This document shows positions 4,587 to 13,274 of a stretch of 34,565 bases of DNA, one piece after another (positions within the stretch are counted from its first letter, which is position 1; every line of letters begins with the position of its first letter). A program made the translations under genes and the position numbers. The stretch is from an uncultured Akkermansia sp. (lineage in GTDB: Bacteria; Verrucomicrobiota; Verrucomicrobiia; Verrucomicrobiales; Akkermansiaceae), in the NCBI GenBank assembly GCA_947588735.1, contig CANQAD010000018.1, positions 1 to 34,565 of the forward strand. Reading direction: 5' to 3'. The notes beneath the pieces are model-generated. The model saw nothing but the letters and a program-made list of their open reading frames with translations. It was not told the origin of the DNA and searched no databases.

Positions 4587-4641
4587 GAAAAAAAGACCGG
4601 CAGCCCCACTCGAAGCTGCCGGTGGCGAGGCAAACTCGCGT
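4586..4641 (-). terminator. Double-hairpin intrinsic terminator of autotransporter 1
   Basis: Reading on the minus strand after the autotransporter stop there are two hairpins: GCGAG/CTCGC (4639-4625), then the perfect 8-bp stem CCGGCAGC/GCTGCCGG (4622-4597) followed by CTTTTTTTCT. This is a strong rho-independent terminator. Near-identical copies end the next two minus-strand genes at 7957-8010 and 11115-11164. Confidence 0.9.
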
Positions 4642-4669
4642 TTTTGTTTACTTACTGTAATGGTGAGCG

Positions 4670-7423
4670 TCAGAAGGCTATGCTGACCCCTCCGCCGACG
4701 CTCCACGAATTGGAACCGCTGCGCAAGTCTGCTTCACCGTTGACATAGAGCAGTGTGTCTCTGTCCACAGGTATGCTGACGCTCGCACCGAGCTGCGCCC
4801 CCACGACACCTGTTTCGGCCGAACGAACCCGTCCGCTGTAACCGCGGTCGCCGAGGAAGGAAACATCGGCCTCGCTGCGGCGGTCGCCCATATCTACTGC
4901 CACATTGGCTCGAATCTCCAGCACAGCAGCGCGACTGAATGTCTGTTCTCCACACTGAGACACAAAGCGAGCTCCGGCTGTCAACGTTGTCAACGTGGAT
5001 TTCTGTTCTCCCACGTGGAGTCCGGCATCACCGGCCCCATTTTCATTGTAGCCATCCATCTTTGTGGTAATGACCGAAAGACCGATCAGAGGCTGAAGAA
5101 GGCTGCTCTTCTGCTCATTAAGCGATATATCATAAGCCAATTCGTAGGCAGCTCCGAATCCGGCGCCGTTCGTACTCCCGCTGGTAGCGTAGTCGAGCAC
5201 ATAGGGCGCAACACCGCCACGGATAGTGCGGTTGAACTCAGCATCCGAGAAACCGGCGGACACGACGAAGCTGTGGTGGAAATTGCCGCTGCGATGGTGA
5301 GCGTAGAGGTTCACATAGTAGGTATCCAGATCTCCCTCGGCATGATCCGCCGCATCAACTTTCAAGTCGCCATAGGAAGCAACGAGGGAGAGACCGATGA
5401 TGGGACCTCCGCCTTGGAGATCTTTCTCCACGCCTACACCGGCTCCCCATGAGTTGTGTTCATATCCGGTTTCATCCCCGGATCGATCCAACTTGGCGCT
5501 GCCGCCCATACCTTCCACCCACACGCGCATCCCTTGGTCAGAATCGTCACGTGCCGCCGGTTCTTGACCGAGGCGAGCTGCCCGCGAAGCAGCGCGAGAG
5601 AGCTGCCCACGCATGGCATCCCGTTGTGCGGCTCCCAGCGCCGGCACAGCGCTGCCGACCACGGCAGACATGAGCCGCTGAGCCTCACTTCTGGCTGCGG
5701 CCGGATCAATGTTTGTTTCCTCGATGAGTCTTTCAGTGATCCCTGACTCAGCGATCATCGCAGCCATGGCTACAGCCGGTTGCCCTCCCTGCCCGATTTG
5801 AGCAAGTTCCGCGATGACACCTGCCACATTCCTCAGCTCTGAGGAGGTCGAATAATTCATGGCGTGGTAGAGCATGCCTGCGCCGGTCCGCGTGTTTTCG
5901 GAGATCGCAAGAGGCGCAAAAATGGTATCGGGATTGGGGTCATCCGGAATAGGCTCGATGGGGGCATCCGGCAGGTTGGCTCCATCGCCGGCTATCACGT
6001 AGAGTTGGACGACATTTCCATCCTTCTTCTCGACCATCAGATACGGATCGTCATATCCATCCACGGTGACCGTTACATTCTCCTTGAGCCATTTATTGAG
6101 CTCATCCTCGCTGTTCTCATCCGTATATTGTGATTGTGGACCCAGACGGAACCATGTCGTGTAGTCTTCACTGTACATATCCCCCGTCTGACTGTACATC
6201 ATAGACGTGAGAACGATGCCGTTTGACTGAATGAGAAGCTGTTTCAAATCCTTACCCGGATTCTCCGCGAATTCCACCCGAACGGCCAACTTGGTCGGGT
6301 CACCATGTCCCTCCCACGTGGTAGTCGTCAGATTAATTGCCGCAGAAGCCGTAATCTTCGCCCCCGTCTCTCCCTTCCCGTACTTCATCACCAATTTCGA
6401 CCGATCCTCCATACGGAAACTAAGCCCTCTTTGTACGAGAGGAGCATCAATACTTGAATCCCAGAAATTGCCAGCCTCAGGATCAGAGCCAATATCTTCG
6501 ACTGAGAAAGAAAACTTTCCAAGCAAAACCTTCGTGCCAGCTTCAATTGATAACGTATCTGTTATCTGAGGAACCGATGCATGCGAGAATGCGTCATATC
6601 CAATCGCGTATACATCTCCCAGATTTATCATTTGAAACTCGTTCTTGGAACCAGAAAGGACTACATTGCACCAACTCGTCGACAATTCCGTTTCCTTCGC
6701 AATAACATTGGTGAAAGTTTGTTCTGCCGGCAAAAAAAGCTCTTCGCGAGCTACACTCGCGACATCTATGTCACCCCGACCTTCTACAATCCCCTCGAAC
6801 TTCCCACCTGTTCCTATAATACTGATTTCACCGTCGTACCAATCTTCAACACTTCCTGCAAATCGAAGGGTCCCTTTTCCATTCAAAGAAGAGCACCACA
6901 CATTATCTCCTGCAATAAGCTCTCCTCCCTCTTCAATCGTCAAGCCAGGAGCAAAGGAACAGTCCCTTAGCGTAAGCTTCGCACCCTTTTGGACGACAAG
7001 TTCAGCACTATACTGATAGGCACTTGAGTCAACTCCACCCAACCTGGACTCCCCGGAGGCAAAGATAATTTTAGCGCCATTAAAAAGCGACAAACTGAGA
7101 TCATAGCTGGGAACCCACTCTCCTTCATAATAATCTCGCCAACCATCGTACGTGATCCCGCCTCTAATGGTCAGACTGGCTCCTTCTCCTACAGAGATAC
7201 TATGATGTTTGTTTTCGTCACCGTTCAGTCTTAAAGCCTTGCTCAGAGTAGCGTCTTCTCCTTCCACTTCGATACTAACCGACCCACTCGGAGTTCCTGA
7301 CAATTCCTCGAGACTTGAATTTTGGTCATCCACAGTCACAGTGACTGTACCAAATGCTGTTGTGCAGCATAGAAGAGCCGCCAGCAACGCGGCGCGCAAC
7401 GTATAAGGTAGGTGTAATTTCAT
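4670..7423 (-). CDS. Autotransporter (type Va secretion), copy 1
   Basis: A 917-residue outer-membrane autotransporter. A signal peptide beginning MKLHLPYTLRAALLAALLCC and ending near AFG leads to a passenger of about 430 residues with short repeated strand motifs (SLTIRGG, LVVQKGAKLTL, LTIEEGGEL) typical of a right-handed beta-helix. A proline-rich linker (DAPIEPIPDDPNPD) and an alpha-helical alanine-rich segment follow, then a C-terminal barrel of about 270 residues (autotransporter beta-domain) ending SVGGGVSIAF with the terminal phenylalanine used for barrel assembly. The frame is open to 7543, but the signal peptide fixes the start at 7423. There is no clear Shine-Dalgarno. Residues from WLKENVTVTV to the end match copy 2 exactly, also at DNA level, whereas the passenger has clearly diverged. 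An inverted-repeat-bounded switch lies 80-270 bp upstream. The passenger's target is unknown; adhesion is likely. Confidence 0.9.
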   Translation of the reverse strand: MKLHLPYTLRAALLAALLCCTTAFGTVTVTVDDQNSSLEELSGTPSGSVSIEVEGEDATLSKALRLNGDENKHHSISVGEGASLTIRGGITYDGWRDYYEGEWVPSYDLSLSLFNGAKIIFASGESRLGGVDSSAYQYSAELVVQKGAKLTLRDCSFAPGLTIEEGGELIAGDNVWCSSLNGKGTLRFAGSVEDWYDGEISIIGTGGKFEGIVEGRGDIDVASVAREELFLPAEQTFTNVIAKETELSTSWCNVVLSGSKNEFQMINLGDVYAIGYDAFSHASVPQITDTLSIEAGTKVLLGKFSFSVEDIGSDPEAGNFWDSSIDAPLVQRGLSFRMEDRSKLVMKYGKGETGAKITASAAINLTTTTWEGHGDPTKLAVRVEFAENPGKDLKQLLIQSNGIVLTSMMYSQTGDMYSEDYTTWFRLGPQSQYTDENSEDELNKWLKENVTVTVDGYDDPYLMVEKKDGNVVQLYVIAGDGANLPDAPIEPIPDDPNPDTIFAPLAISENTRTGAGMLYHAMNYSTSSELRNVAGVIAELAQIGQGGQPAVAMAAMIAESGITERLIEETNIDPAAARSEAQRLMSAVVGSAVPALGAAQRDAMRGQLSRAASRAARLGQEPAARDDSDQGMRVWVEGMGGSAKLDRSGDETGYEHNSWGAGVGVEKDLQGGGPIIGLSLVASYGDLKVDAADHAEGDLDTYYVNLYAHHRSGNFHHSFVVSAGFSDAEFNRTIRGGVAPYVLDYATSGSTNGAGFGAAYELAYDISLNEQKSSLLQPLIGLSVITTKMDGYNENGAGDAGLHVGEQKSTLTTLTAGARFVSQCGEQTFSRAAVLEIRANVAVDMGDRRSEADVSFLGDRGYSGRVRSAETGVVGAQLGASVSIPVDRDTLLYVNGEADLRSGSNSWSVGGGVSIAF

Positions 7424-7504
7424 AGGAATTATTTTATAGAGTCTGAATTTTCCCTTAGCCCTCACCATATACACGTAAGAGCTTTGGTACAGGAGCGAGT
7501 GTAT

Positions 7505-7522
7505 CGCATTTCGAATGAGATG
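7505..7522 (+). repeat. Left inverted repeat of switch 1
   Basis: CGCATTTCGAATGAGATG; pairs with the reverse complement of 7670-7687. The TTTCGAA core is shared by both ends and would be the strand-exchange region. Confidence 0.7.
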
Positions 7523-7669
7523 TACAGAAAAAAGTGTTATCATTTCTCGTTTTTAAGTAAGTTAACGTTCTGAGGCATCTTCGGATTTCGAAAGAAGTAA
7601 AGACGAGAGAGAGGAGGGATTGTTTCTTCAAAGCATTTTTGGTAAATATAAAACGAATACCCGTGTGCT

Positions 7670-7687
7670 CATCGTTTTCGAAAAGAG
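7670..7687 (-). repeat. Right inverted repeat of switch 1
   Basis: Minus-strand CTCTTTTCGAAAACGATG; 13 of 18 positions match the left repeat. Centre-to-centre distance of the TTCGAA cores is 167 bp, the same as in switch 2. Confidence 0.7.
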
Positions 7688-7703
7688 ATGAGCAAGCTCC
7701 CAT

Positions 7704-7956: not shown

Positions 7957-8010
7957 CATAAAAAACCGGCAGCCCCACTCGAAGCTGCCGGTGGCGAGGC
8001 AAACTCGCGT
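7957..8010 (-). terminator. Double-hairpin intrinsic terminator of autotransporter 2
   Basis: Same structure as the terminator at 4586-4641: the stem CCGGCAGC/GCTGCCGG lies at 7966-7991 and a T-run is read from 7965 downwards. The identity with the other copy begins at the base before the hairpin (7965 against 4596), so the terminator is part of the duplicated or converted tract. Confidence 0.9.
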
Positions 8011-8038
8011 TTTTGTTTACTTACTGTAATGGTGAGCG

Positions 8039-10765
8039 TCAGAAGGCTATGCTGACCCCTCCGCCGACGCTCCACGAATTGGAACCGCTGCGCAAGTCTG
8101 CTTCACCGTTGACATAGAGCAGTGTGTCTCTGTCCACAGGTATGCTGACGCTCGCACCGAGCTGCGCCCCCACGACACCTGTTTCGGCCGAACGAACCCG
8201 TCCGCTGTAACCGCGGTCGCCGAGGAAGGAAACATCGGCCTCGCTGCGGCGGTCGCCCATATCTACTGCCACATTGGCTCGAATCTCCAGCACAGCAGCG
8301 CGACTGAATGTCTGTTCTCCACACTGAGACACAAAGCGAGCTCCGGCTGTCAACGTTGTCAACGTGGATTTCTGTTCTCCCACGTGGAGTCCGGCATCAC
8401 CGGCCCCATTTTCATTGTAGCCATCCATCTTTGTGGTAATGACCGAAAGACCGATCAGAGGCTGAAGAAGGCTGCTCTTCTGCTCATTAAGCGATATATC
8501 ATAAGCCAATTCGTAGGCAGCTCCGAATCCGGCGCCGTTCGTACTCCCGCTGGTAGCGTAGTCGAGCACATAGGGCGCAACACCGCCACGGATAGTGCGG
8601 TTGAACTCAGCATCCGAGAAACCGGCGGACACGACGAAGCTGTGGTGGAAATTGCCGCTGCGATGGTGAGCGTAGAGGTTCACATAGTAGGTATCCAGAT
8701 CTCCCTCGGCATGATCCGCCGCATCAACTTTCAAGTCGCCATAGGAAGCAACGAGGGAGAGACCGATGATGGGACCTCCGCCTTGGAGATCTTTCTCCAC
8801 GCCTACACCGGCTCCCCATGAGTTGTGTTCATATCCGGTTTCATCCCCGGATCGATCCAACTTGGCGCTGCCGCCCATACCTTCCACCCACACGCGCATC
8901 CCTTGGTCAGAATCGTCACGTGCCGCCGGTTCTTGACCGAGGCGAGCTGCCCGCGAAGCAGCGCGAGAGAGCTGCCCACGCATGGCATCCCGTTGTGCGG
9001 CTCCCAGCGCCGGCACAGCGCTGCCGACCACGGCAGACATGAGCCGCTGAGCCTCACTTCTGGCTGCGGCCGGATCAATGTTTGTTTCCTCGATGAGTCT
9101 TTCAGTGATCCCTGACTCAGCGATCATCGCAGCCATGGCTACAGCCGGTTGCCCTCCCTGCCCGATTTGAGCAAGTTCCGCGATGACACCTGCCACATTC
9201 CTCAGCTCTGAGGAGGTCGAATAATTCATGGCGTGGTAGAGCATGCCTGCGCCGGTCCGCGTGTTTTCGGAGATCGCAAGAGGCGCAAAAATGGTATCGG
9301 GATTGGGGTCATCCGGAATAGGCTCGATGGGGGCATCCGGCAGGTTGGCTCCATCGCCGGCTATCACGTAGAGTTGGACGACATTTCCATCCTTCTTCTC
9401 GACCATCAGATACGGATCGTCATATCCATCCACGGTGACCGTTACATTCTCCTTGAGCCATCCGTTGAGCTTCGACTCGCTGTCCACATCCGTATATTGT
9501 TCGGTCACCGAAAACGTGCGATCTCCGTCATCATGCTCCCCGTATTCAATGGAAGTAAGAACAATGCCGTTCGCCTGGATGAGGAGTTGCTTCAAATCCT
9601 TACCATGGTTCTCTGCGAATTCCACCCGAACGGTCAGCTTGGTTGGGTTTGATGTGTCTTCCTCCCACGTTGTCGTCTTCAACACAATTGCCCCGGACGC
9701 CGTGATTTTGGCTCCCATCTCACCCTTGCCATACTTCACCACCAGCGTCGACCGATCTTCCATGTCAAAGCTGAGTCCCCTCTGCCTGACAGGTTCATAT
9801 ATCCGCGAATCAAACTTTACGGAATCTGATTCCTCGTCATAATGCCAAGTGGGGGCATCGAGAAGTTTTCCGAGAGAAACTTTCGTCCCCTCCTCCATGG
9901 TCAACGTGCTTCTGGTTTGCAATTTGTCCGGATTGTCCCACGTATCAAAAGAAATGTCATGAACGCTTCCTAACTGCAGACCTTTGAACTCGTCCTTTGC
10001 GCCGGCGAGAGCGACATTGCCGCAGGCCACGGACAGGTTGGTCCCTTGAGATGTGACGTCGGTGAAAGTTTGATGGCTCGTGTCCAGACTTGGTTTCGAA
10101 GGGTTGAAAAGACTACCAACTTCAATAAATTCTTCGCCCTCTATCCTCCCGCTGAAATTCCCACCGGCGCCATCAATGAAAAAGCTACTAAAACCATAAA
10201 CCGGATTCTTTCGAAGGGTCAAAGTTCCACTCCCGTTCAGACTTGTACAGTTCAAGTCGGCCACGGACATTTCTCCGCCTTTCTCAATCGTTAAGATGCC
10301 AACTCGTGAAGTAATATCATCCGAAATTGTGACCTTTGCTCCGTTCTGCACGACAATCTCGCCTGGCCCGCCCCACACAGTACCCAGTTTCGATTCTCCT
10401 GCTGCAAAGATGATCTTTCCTCCCGGCTTGTCTTGATTACCCAATTCTTTCTCAAACAAATGGAGTATTCTCCCCCCACCCAGGTAGTTACCGTTGTACG
10501 TGAGTCCTCCCATGATGGTCAGGCTGTGTCCTTTTTCCACAATAATGTAATGGTCCGCCCCACTATCCAGTGTTAAAGCATGGCCCAAGATGGCGTCTTC
10601 CCCCTCCACCACAATACTGACGGACCCACTCGGAGCTCCTGTCAATTTTTCAAGACTTGAATCTTGGTCATTTACAGTCACAGTGACTGTACCAAATGCC
10701 ATTGTGCAGCACAAGAGCGCCGCCAGCACCGCATTGCGTAAAATATAGGGTAATCGAAGTTTCAT
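8039..10765 (-). CDS. Autotransporter (type Va secretion), copy 2
   Basis: A 908-residue paralogue of the autotransporter at 4670-7423. It has a signal peptide starting MKLRLPYILRNAVLAALLCC, a beta-helix-like passenger (SLTIMGGLTY, IVVQNGAKVTI, LTIEKGGEM), the same DAPIEPIPDDPNPD linker, the alanine-rich helical segment and the C-terminal barrel ending SVGGGVSIAF. The open frame extends up to 10942 through the switch region, but those 59 residues precede the signal peptide and are not expected to be translated; the start is 10765. There is no Shine-Dalgarno. The last 474 residues match copy 1 exactly, with identical DNA, while the passengers differ by many substitutions and small indels. This is the pattern left by recent gene conversion of the barrel. 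Confidence 0.9.
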   Translation of the reverse strand: MKLRLPYILRNAVLAALLCCTMAFGTVTVTVNDQDSSLEKLTGAPSGSVSIVVEGEDAILGHALTLDSGADHYIIVEKGHSLTIMGGLTYNGNYLGGGRILHLFEKELGNQDKPGGKIIFAAGESKLGTVWGGPGEIVVQNGAKVTISDDITSRVGILTIEKGGEMSVADLNCTSLNGSGTLTLRKNPVYGFSSFFIDGAGGNFSGRIEGEEFIEVGSLFNPSKPSLDTSHQTFTDVTSQGTNLSVACGNVALAGAKDEFKGLQLGSVHDISFDTWDNPDKLQTRSTLTMEEGTKVSLGKLLDAPTWHYDEESDSVKFDSRIYEPVRQRGLSFDMEDRSTLVVKYGKGEMGAKITASGAIVLKTTTWEEDTSNPTKLTVRVEFAENHGKDLKQLLIQANGIVLTSIEYGEHDDGDRTFSVTEQYTDVDSESKLNGWLKENVTVTVDGYDDPYLMVEKKDGNVVQLYVIAGDGANLPDAPIEPIPDDPNPDTIFAPLAISENTRTGAGMLYHAMNYSTSSELRNVAGVIAELAQIGQGGQPAVAMAAMIAESGITERLIEETNIDPAAARSEAQRLMSAVVGSAVPALGAAQRDAMRGQLSRAASRAARLGQEPAARDDSDQGMRVWVEGMGGSAKLDRSGDETGYEHNSWGAGVGVEKDLQGGGPIIGLSLVASYGDLKVDAADHAEGDLDTYYVNLYAHHRSGNFHHSFVVSAGFSDAEFNRTIRGGVAPYVLDYATSGSTNGAGFGAAYELAYDISLNEQKSSLLQPLIGLSVITTKMDGYNENGAGDAGLHVGEQKSTLTTLTAGARFVSQCGEQTFSRAAVLEIRANVAVDMGDRRSEADVSFLGDRGYSGRVRSAETGVVGAQLGASVSIPVDRDTLLYVNGEADLRSGSNSWSVGGGVSIAF

Positions 10766-10842
10766 AGAAATAATTGTGAATGATTTTTTACCTCTGCACA
10801 CATCGTTTGTCCGTGAGCGCTTCGGTACAAGGACGAGTATAT

Positions 10843-10860
10843 CGAATTTTAAAAACGATG
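10843..10860 (+). repeat. Left inverted repeat of switch 2
   Basis: CGAATTTTAAAAACGATG; pairs with the reverse complement of 11008-11025 at 13 of 18 positions, including the whole TTTTAAAA core. Confidence 0.7.
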
Positions 10861-11007
10861 AGCACACGGATATTCGTTTTATATTCACAAAAAATGCTTT
10901 GAAAAACCAGTCCCTCTTCTCTCTCGTCTTTATCCTTTTCAAAATCTCGGGATGCCTCAGAACGCTAACCTACTTAAAAACGAGAAATGGTAACATTTTT
11001 TCCTGTA

Positions 11008-11025
11008 CATCTCTTTTAAAAAGAG
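11008..11025 (-). repeat. Right inverted repeat of switch 2
   Basis: Minus-strand CTCTTTTTAAAAGAGATG. Its core agrees with the left repeat of the same locus, but not with the TTTCGAA cores of switch 1, as expected if recombination takes place within each locus. Confidence 0.7.
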
Positions 11026-11114
11026 ATAAGCAAGTGTCCATTTCCGGCAGTCTCAGGATGCAAAGAGCTTACGAGTGAGAGACTTATACAACGGCGTCTC
11101 TTACGCTTGGCGGT

Positions 11115-11164
11115 GAAAAACCGGCAGCCCCACTCGGAGCTGCCGGTAGCGAGGCAAACTCGCG
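11115..11164 (-). terminator. Double-hairpin intrinsic terminator of glnN
   Basis: GCGAG/CTCGC followed by CCGGCAGC/GCTGCCGG (11146-11121) and a short T-run on the minus strand. It differs from the two autotransporter terminators by only a couple of bases, so the same terminator module closes three consecutive genes. Confidence 0.85.
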
Positions 11165-11171
11165 TTTCAGA

Positions 11172-13274
11172 CTATTTGCTGTGGATGTTGAGCATCTGGG
11201 CGTAAGTAGGCACCGGCCACAAGTCGGCGTCCACAATGGCTTCGAGGGCATCAACGGTAACGCGGGCGGACTCCATGGCTTCTTTCATGCACACGGGACA
11301 GCCCTTATCGATGGCAGCCTGCAAAGCCTGAACTTTAGCGGGCAACTCATCGTAGAGTTTGCCCACGGCGTTGGCTTTGTCCTCTGCGGCCTTGAGACCG
11401 GCTTTGATGCCGGCAGCCTTGATGGCGGCAATGGTCCCGCAGATTTCTGTCATCTGACCGGCTATGGCCGGTAGGTAAATGGTCTGCAACATGTTCAGGC
11501 AGGTCTTGGCCTCAATGTGAATGAGCTTCAGGTAGCTCTCCGCCTGCACCTCCTTGCGGGCCAGAAGTTCGGCCTTGGAGAGGATGTTGTACTTTTTCAT
11601 GAGCTTGATGGTATCCGGGCGAGCGAGCACTTCAAGTGCCTCCGGCGTGGTCTTAAGGTGCGGCAAACCGCGGCGCTCAGCCTCCTTAATCCACTCCTGC
11701 GAGTAGCCATTGCCATTGAAGATGATACGATCGTGCTTCGTGATCATCTCCTTAATCATGGCGCTGACCACGGTGTTAAAATTACGCTTGCCTACGACGG
11801 GTTCAAGCCTGGTGGCCACCTCATCCAGGGCTTCGGCCACAATGGTGTTGAGGACAGCCATGGGCCACGCGCAAGTTTGCGAGGAACCAACGGCACGGAA
11901 CTCAAACTTGTTCCCCGTGAAAGCAAAGGGAGAAGTCCTGTTGCGATCGGTCGTGTCCTTCGGTAGAGTTGGCAGCACATCCACGCCCAGCTCCATGGTG
12001 GTCTTGGCAGCAGAGCTCTTGGCGCCGCCGGCCTTGATCTGTTCAATGATGTCGGTGAGCTGATCTCCCAGGAAGATGGAGATGATGGCGGGCGGAGCCT
12101 CATTAGCGCCCAGACGATGGTCGTTGCCGGCTTTAGAGATCGAAGCTCGCAGCAAATCGGCATGTTTGTCCACACCCTGGATCACGCAGGCGAGGAAGGT
12201 CAGGAAAAGCAAGTTGCTGTGCGGCGTCTTGCCCGGAGAGAAGAGCGACCCGAGTTCCGGAGTGCCGAGCGACCAGTTGTTGTGCTTGCCGGAACCGTTC
12301 ACGCAAGCGTACGGCTTCTCATGCAACAGACAAACGAGGTTAAATTTGAGAGCCTGCCGTTGGAGAATATCCATAATCATCACGTTGTGGTCCACAGCCA
12401 CGTTGCTCGCCTCAAAGAGCGGAGCAATTTCAAACTGCGCGGGAGCCACCTCGTTGTGACGCGTCTTGGCCGGCACGCCGAGGGCCCACAGCGCGTGATC
12501 CACGGAGTTCATGAACTCCAGCACTCTCTCCTTGATGGAGCCGAAGTAGTGATCCTCCATCTGCTGATGCTTGGGCGGCAGACAGCCGAAAAGGGTGCGC
12601 CCGGTCTCAATGAGATCCGGCCGCTGCAAGTACAAACTGCGATCAATCAGGAAATATTCCTGCTCCGCGCCCAAATTACTCTCCACACAGCTGGGCTCCA
12701 CCCCAAAACACCGCAACACGCGCGTTGCATGCTTCGACACAGCTACCATCGAACGCAACAGGGGCGTCTTCTTGTCCAAAGCTTCGCCTGTGTACGAACA
12801 AAAAGCCGTGGGAATGCAGAGCGTGGCAGTGTGCTCGGTGCGTTTGATGAACGCCGGAGATGTGGGATCCCATGCCGTGTAGCCACGTGCCTCAAATGTC
12901 GCACGTATCCCGCCGGAGGGGAAAGAGGAGGCATCCGGCTCAGCCTGAATAAGGTTCTTGCCTGTGAACTCGCAGATCATGCCCCCCTTCCCATCCGGTT
13001 CCACAAAAGAATCGTGCTTTTCCGCCGTAGCGTCCGAAAGCGGTTGGAACCAGTGCGTGTAGTGCGTGGCTCCTTTGGAGAGCGCCCACACCTTCATCGC
13101 CTGTGCCACTTCATCCGCTATGCTCATGTCCAGCTTCCCTCCGCGCTGGACCGTGGCAAGCATCTTCTTGAAAGCGCTTTTGGAAAGGTATTTCTCCATT
13201 GTTTTGATCCCGAAAGTATCGCTGCCGTACAATGCCGTCAACGCCTCTTCTGCACTGGTGTCTTTCGTTTCCAT
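11172..13274 (-). CDS. glnN: Glutamine synthetase type III
   Basis: A 700-residue cytoplasmic enzyme that makes glutamine from glutamate, ammonia and ATP. GSIII is larger than GSI and is typical of Bacteroidetes, cyanobacteria and Verrucomicrobia. Family landmarks are LGAEQEYFLID (201-211), RHNEVAPAQFEIAP (272-285), NGSGKHNNWSLGTPE (326-340), a DHRLGANEAPPAIISIFLG block and a FTGNKFEFRAVGSSQ segment. The long C-terminal helical extension of the type is present. The start at 13274 gives the normal N-terminus. A consensus sigma-54 promoter lies 69-85 bp upstream and a double-hairpin terminator 8 bp beyond the stop, so the gene is probably transcribed alone and controlled by nitrogen supply. Confidence 0.96.
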   Translation of the reverse strand: METKDTSAEEALTALYGSDTFGIKTMEKYLSKSAFKKMLATVQRGGKLDMSIADEVAQAMKVWALSKGATHYTHWFQPLSDATAEKHDSFVEPDGKGGMICEFTGKNLIQAEPDASSFPSGGIRATFEARGYTAWDPTSPAFIKRTEHTATLCIPTAFCSYTGEALDKKTPLLRSMVAVSKHATRVLRCFGVEPSCVESNLGAEQEYFLIDRSLYLQRPDLIETGRTLFGCLPPKHQQMEDHYFGSIKERVLEFMNSVDHALWALGVPAKTRHNEVAPAQFEIAPLFEASNVAVDHNVMIMDILQRQALKFNLVCLLHEKPYACVNGSGKHNNWSLGTPELGSLFSPGKTPHSNLLFLTFLACVIQGVDKHADLLRASISKAGNDHRLGANEAPPAIISIFLGDQLTDIIEQIKAGGAKSSAAKTTMELGVDVLPTLPKDTTDRNRTSPFAFTGNKFEFRAVGSSQTCAWPMAVLNTIVAEALDEVATRLEPVVGKRNFNTVVSAMIKEMITKHDRIIFNGNGYSQEWIKEAERRGLPHLKTTPEALEVLARPDTIKLMKKYNILSKAELLARKEVQAESYLKLIHIEAKTCLNMLQTIYLPAIAGQMTEICGTIAAIKAAGIKAGLKAAEDKANAVGKLYDELPAKVQALQAAIDKGCPVCMKEAMESARVTVDALEAIVDADLWPVPTYAQMLNIHSK

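Follow-up and report, generated by a model that had tools for sequence, protein, structure and literature searches.

The capsule promoters of Bacteroides fragilis are a case of many surface loci flipped by one serine recombinase, Mpi, acting in trans, and the fim switch of Escherichia coli (FimB/FimE) is one of a tyrosine recombinase system acting on inverted repeats at a surface structure. In Akkermansia muciniphila, invertons with CGGATT repeats and phase variation of the capsule have already been published (PMC13343947). These CGGATT..AATCCG repeats, for which that article cites Jiang et al. 2019, are equivalent to group 138 of PMC11892184. In A. muciniphila BAA-835 one inverton (2092093-2092283) is located near two autotransporter genes and its orientation drifts over mouse generations (PMC11892184).

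We have analyzed a window of 34,565 nucleotides from an uncultured gut Akkermansia sp. (contig CANQAD010000018.1 of assembly GCA_947588735.1, genome G000 from here on). Two autotransporter genes are found in it, each with a putative invertible segment upstream. The relevant features are:

4670-7423, minus strand: autotransporter 1, 917 aa, with a PF03797 beta-domain (Pfam E 5.5e-37)
7498-7503, minus strand: fixed -10-like hexamer TACACT outside the segment, part of the predicted ON promoter of autotransporter 1 together with the -35 and the 17-bp site spacer
7503-7521: gene-proximal recombination site of autotransporter 1, ATCGCATTTCGAATGAGAT, core ATCGCA-TTTCGAA-TGAGAT in the ATC-N13-GAT register common to the whole site family; its spacer TTTCGAA is the same as that of its partner, inverted
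7521-7526, minus strand: -35-like hexamer TGTACA inside the segment, now beside autotransporter 1 (from the register scan and the inner/outer asymmetry over 57 pairs)
7522-7670: putative invertible inner segment of autotransporter 1, 149 bp, 86% to 10860-11008, reversed only
7671-7689: gene-distal recombination site of autotransporter 1, ATCGTTTTCGAAAAGAGAT, core ATCGTT-TTCGAAA-AGAGAT, the inverted partner, with relatives of ~30 bp at many genome positions
7965-7992, minus strand: intrinsic terminator downstream of autotransporter 2, a 12-pair stem with a T tail
8039-10765, minus strand: autotransporter 2, 908 aa, with a PF03797 beta-domain (Pfam E 6.5e-37)
10836-10841, minus strand: fixed -10-like hexamer TATACT of autotransporter 2, with TGCTCA at the -35 position
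10841-10859: gene-proximal site of autotransporter 2, spacer TTTTAAA
10860-11008: putative invertible inner segment of autotransporter 2, in the orientation common to eight relatives
11004-11009, plus strand: -35-like hexamer TGTACA of the autotransporter 2 segment, at the end far from the gene
11009-11027: gene-distal site of autotransporter 2

Region 7503-7689 has the makeup of a DNA inverton, a short intergenic segment bounded by inverted repeats and located upstream of a gene, and the autotransporter 1 switch is a diverged branch of the known Akkermansia invertons. Like the CGGATT invertons of A. muciniphila, from the same genus, it belongs to a set of short intergenic segments present many times per genome, with palindromic arms around a variable spacer that is matched within pairs, upstream of surface genes that include autotransporters and with a -35 placed in the same register at a single inner end. 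The BAA-835 inverton is also short, of similar size and near autotransporter genes, but it belongs to another repeat family. The arms are ATCGCA, ATCTCA, ATCGTT and ATCTCT here, none with the CGGATT motif. Allowing one mismatch, ATCGGATTTNAAATCCGAT had no match in G000, from which the AT-extended CGGATT site is also absent; the CGGATT genomes that were checked gave no sites of the ATCTCT/ATCGCA/ATCTCA arm family, and the candidate recombinase of the ATC-N13-GAT clade (see below) has only paralogues there. Unlike the Mpi switches, whose promoters are whole, the promoter here appears to be split; no serine recombinase of the Mpi/Hin type was found by a PF00239 profile search of the genome (89% complete), and the sites and the spacer length fit a tyrosine enzyme. 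In the fim switch the promoter lies complete within the segment, with the recombinase genes adjacent to the switch; neither seems to hold here.

We consider it probable that 7503-7689 is an inverton with a split promoter, flipped by a tyrosine-type recombinase and leaving autotransporter 1 ON and autotransporter 2 OFF. In the mechanism proposed, the enzyme would swap strands within the 7-bp spacer of each of the two 19-bp sites, which are inverted to each other, and flip the 149 bp between them. The segment would carry no whole promoter, only a -35 at one inner end, with the -10 fixed outside on the gene side, and the site core itself (A-17 bp-T) would run from the final base of the -35, through the full 17-bp spacer, to the initial base of the -10. 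A promoter toward autotransporter 1 would thus be built in one orientation, and a poor hexamer would take the place of its -35 in the opposite one. The enzyme would belong to the orthologue group of G000:C2:31042-32040 and act in trans on many such switches.

A sequence-only reading of the same DNA had reported 18-bp inverted repeats around a 147-bp segment. Its repeat coordinates hold within two bases, the true sites being 19 bp (7503-7521 and 7671-7689) and the segment 149 bp (7522-7670), and the TTTCGAA that it saw in both repeats is the spacer. The resemblance to the DNA upstream of autotransporter 2 only after reverse-complementing, on which that reading was built, is real: the inner 149 bp are 86% identical reversed and 50% direct, and a proper alignment of 7505-7687, reversed, to 10845-11025 gave 82.5% identity over 183 columns. 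This reversed match had E = 3.7e-53 in a genome search with the autotransporter 1 segment. The outer flanks match in direct orientation (61-72%), as it had also noticed. Its proposal of a duplicated pair with one copy inverted is also well supported. The sister species G016 (a MAG of an uncultured Akkermansia, isolate Lapin-003-2) has a single autotransporter at the orthologous position, and its segment is in the autotransporter 2 orientation. Among the ten homologous segments in the genus nine share this orientation and only that of autotransporter 1 is reversed. Since G016 and nine of the ten segments point the other way, autotransporter 1 is taken as the inverted copy. The uniformity of the nine may indicate that flipping is rare, and a single historical inversion would look identical at the autotransporter 1 locus. 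The comparison of related assemblies that had been suggested thus gave nine of ten autotransporter segments in one orientation, and an inversion relative to G016 at another locus. There (G000:C2:12693-12997 against G016:C18) the flanks (93-99% identical) match on one strand and the inner 306 bp on the other, with the breakpoints at the sites; it was the only clean case when orthologous inversions were sought across all collected loci. Both orientations are therefore known from paralogous and cross-species comparison of sequence assemblies.

The search of its own genome with the autotransporter 1 segment gave 21 places, mostly of ~30 bp. These sites share a 19-bp core, ATC-N13-GAT, made of two 6-bp arms around a 7-bp spacer, and this spacing is invariant across the family. 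The arms are mostly ATCTCT in G000 and ATCGCA or ATCTCA in its congeners. G000 has at least 19 site pairs, counting both pairs of the window, among sites collected by searches. The strict site pattern is present in 33 of 59 Akkermansia genomes (one sister genome has 71 sites), and a reversed control pattern had zero matches among the 59 congeners. A contig end coincides exactly with a site in three cases (0.1 expected), which a mixture of orientations would produce when a metagenome is assembled. Taken as lone 18-mers the arms of autotransporter 1 are weak (18/31 positions match), and a repeat search with default settings did not report these inverted sites; we take them as real because the same sites recur in the family with matched spacers.

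To compare spacers, sites were picked by their arms alone. The 7-bp spacers were identical at 7/7 positions, inverted, in 89 of 109 neighbouring pairs, with a mean of 23 and a maximum of 35 in shuffles. Without the commonest spacer, 50 of 55 pairs were matched vs 6.8 expected, with 18 different spacers. Autotransporter 1 has TTTCGAA and autotransporter 2 TTTTAAA, each matched within its own pair. Spacers that are matched within pairs and varied between pairs point to strand exchange in the spacer, a tyrosine-recombinase signature, and the arrangement of arms around 7 bp identical between partners is that of a tyrosine recombinase system, in which 6-8 bp are expected. With the site family, the matched spacers and the reversed match, the earlier suggestion of an invertible switch upstream of the autotransporter appears well supported.

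The hexamers next to the sites are distributed very unevenly. Those similar to a -35 (TGTACA, TGGACA, TTGACA) were found 60 times on the inner side vs 8 on the outer, and those similar to a -10 (TATACT, TACACT, TAGACT; like TATAAT) 70 times on the outer side vs 13 on the inner. Over the 57 pairs this asymmetry has p = 2.4e-20, a value that overstates independence because the pairs are related. The site pattern contains GTACAG, which favours finding that hexamer and not its inner/outer placement. In a register scan both signals peak in a single exact register, in which the core begins with the final base of the -35 and ends with the initial base of the -10, leaving 17 bp between the two hexamers. 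In 44 of 55 pairs just one of the two inner ends has a -35-like hexamer, and an outward ORF is more often found in front of the outer sides with a -10 (56/64 vs 24/38; p = 0.006, independence being again overstated by the related pairs). TGTACA matches TTGACA at 4/6 positions and is palindromic, and could partly be an extended recombinase-binding element. The known CGGATTNNNAATCCG sites of other Akkermansia genomes carry TTGAC at one inner end and at the identical register (20 inner vs 0 outer), and the outer -10 of CGGATT sites is weak in the exact register. Elements of the -35 and TATAAT-like types are described in A. muciniphila from a transcription-start study (PMC4782308).

With an E. coli-type matrix the gene-proximal junction of autotransporter 1, TGTACA-17-TACACT, is the best-scoring gene-directed promoter at the locus (8.1 as is, 5.7 flipped). 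With the same matrix the junction of autotransporter 2 scores 8.1 as is and 10.5 flipped, and flipping raises the junction score at autotransporter 2 and at each of eight relatives. Since the first junction is assembled and the nine others are better flipped, autotransporter 1 is predicted to be ON as sequenced, and autotransporter 2 and the eight relatives OFF; the promoter of autotransporter 2, with TGCTCA at the -35 position, is predicted to be weak or OFF. The assembled -35/-10 junction contradicts the earlier guess that autotransporter 1 was perhaps OFF. Its transcript would be expected to start near 7491, and its start codon is ~80 bp downstream of the gene-proximal site.

An inverton with a complete internal promoter, in which the conserved flanking hexamers would be extended recombinase contacts and not promoter halves, is an unlikely explanation, if the likeliest of the alternatives. 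In its favour, most invertible promoters of other systems are whole, the palindromic TGTACA directly borders the arms, and the autotransporter 2 segment has an internal candidate, TTTTCA-16-TATAAA, with a score of 8.4. However, no whole internal promoter conserved across the ten autotransporter segments was found when sought, the -35-like hexamer is at one inner end only with the -10-like hexamer on the outside facing the genes, and the different arms of the CGGATT family have TTGAC in the same register. These observations favour the split promoter.

A single old inversion after the gene duplication, now fixed as a relic and no working switch, would agree with the nine homologues in one orientation and with an orientation known here from the assembly alone, but we regard it as quite improbable: spacers stay matched within pairs and differ between pairs, those of autotransporters 1 and 2 included, the sister-species orthologue at another locus is inverted at its sites, and the excess of sites exactly at contig ends also speaks against it, as does the flipping of CGGATT invertons in cultured and host-associated Akkermansia (PMC13343947, PMC11892184). 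That the sites are transcription factor operators or parts of a dispersed repeat, the reversal being an accident of repeat evolution, is very improbable; each site is near-palindromic and recurrent through the genome, as this would require, but operators would not be expected to form strict inverted pairs whose matched spacers are specific to each locus, and the orthologous inverted locus breaks exactly at the sites.

G000 has 12 tyrosine-type integrase genes. No recombinase gene adjoins the sites in the regions examined, and the enzyme was therefore sought by its distribution across genomes. One clade (100/100) in a tree of 69 relatives was represented once in each of the six sampled site-bearing genomes and was missing from all seven sampled genomes that lack these sites. 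Defining the candidate orthologue by a cut-off of >=331 bits (paralogues reach <=270 bits), orthologue and sites are both present in 31 of the 59 genomes, both absent in 25 and discordant in 3, G039 having only the gene and G012 and G018 only the sites. The co-occurrence is confounded by phylogeny, with shared descent explaining part of it. Variation in the site arms follows that of the enzyme (Mantel r 0.41, p 0.0002). Of the R-K-H/K-R-H/W-Y set of tyrosine recombinases, the residues R, K, R, H and Y of the candidate are near-invariant in 30 members, with an aspartate at the usual histidine place. The orthologue group of G000:C2:31042-32040 is thus a strong candidate for the invertase of these sites, and the Akkermansia inverton literature examined identifies none. 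Neither the arm family, nor the split-promoter reading, nor this candidate invertase was found described in the literature searched, an absence that only weakly suggests novelty.

For the genus as a whole we lean, by a narrow measure, to Akkermansia invertons being split-promoter switches in which the site is the promoter spacer between a mobile -35 and a fixed -10, with one trans-acting tyrosine recombinase in this clade that co-evolves with the arms of its sites and sets the state of dozens of surface genes in each genome. If true, the ON/OFF state of dozens of surface genes could be read straight from an Akkermansia assembly, and the strict constraint on the sites would be explained by their doubling as promoter spacers. 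Phase variation of surface proteins bears on the encounters of a mucus-dwelling commensal with its host and with phage.

Several loci (L254, L031, L305, L306, L314, L315 and L316, and L061 and L071 in congeners) have three sites, the first inverted vs the other two and ~127-158 bp apart. The sites in direct order could delete the intervening piece, yet the piece persists. At L029 (1759-2277) a type VI secretion VipA gene (PF05591) is directly behind an inverton, which may subject a contractile injection system to phase variation. Other neighbours of invertons of this family are genes for a family 2 glycosyltransferase, a DltB-like protein and a nucleotidyl transferase (L047, L253 and L048). 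The TTTTCGAAGACGAGATGCG pattern was set aside as a different repeat; its ~15 copies (L009-L018, L020, L021 and others) constitute a separate dispersed repeat. In G004, an Akkermansia of the CGGATT-site type, a CGGATTNNNAATCCG site is found no more than ~300 bp from the estimated start of 7 of the 8 autotransporter ORFs.

Within the window, the 3' parts of the two autotransporter genes (4596-6092 vs 7965-9461) are identical over 1497 bp and their passenger halves are strongly different, which reflects either a recent gene conversion or an assembly effect. The terminator at 7965-7992 would shield autotransporter 1 from autotransporter 2 transcription. An 80-bp terminator-bearing repeat (ACCGGCAGC...GCTGCCGGT) is found after each neighbouring gene, at 4592-4671, 7961-8040 and 11116-11196, the copies being 83-95% alike.
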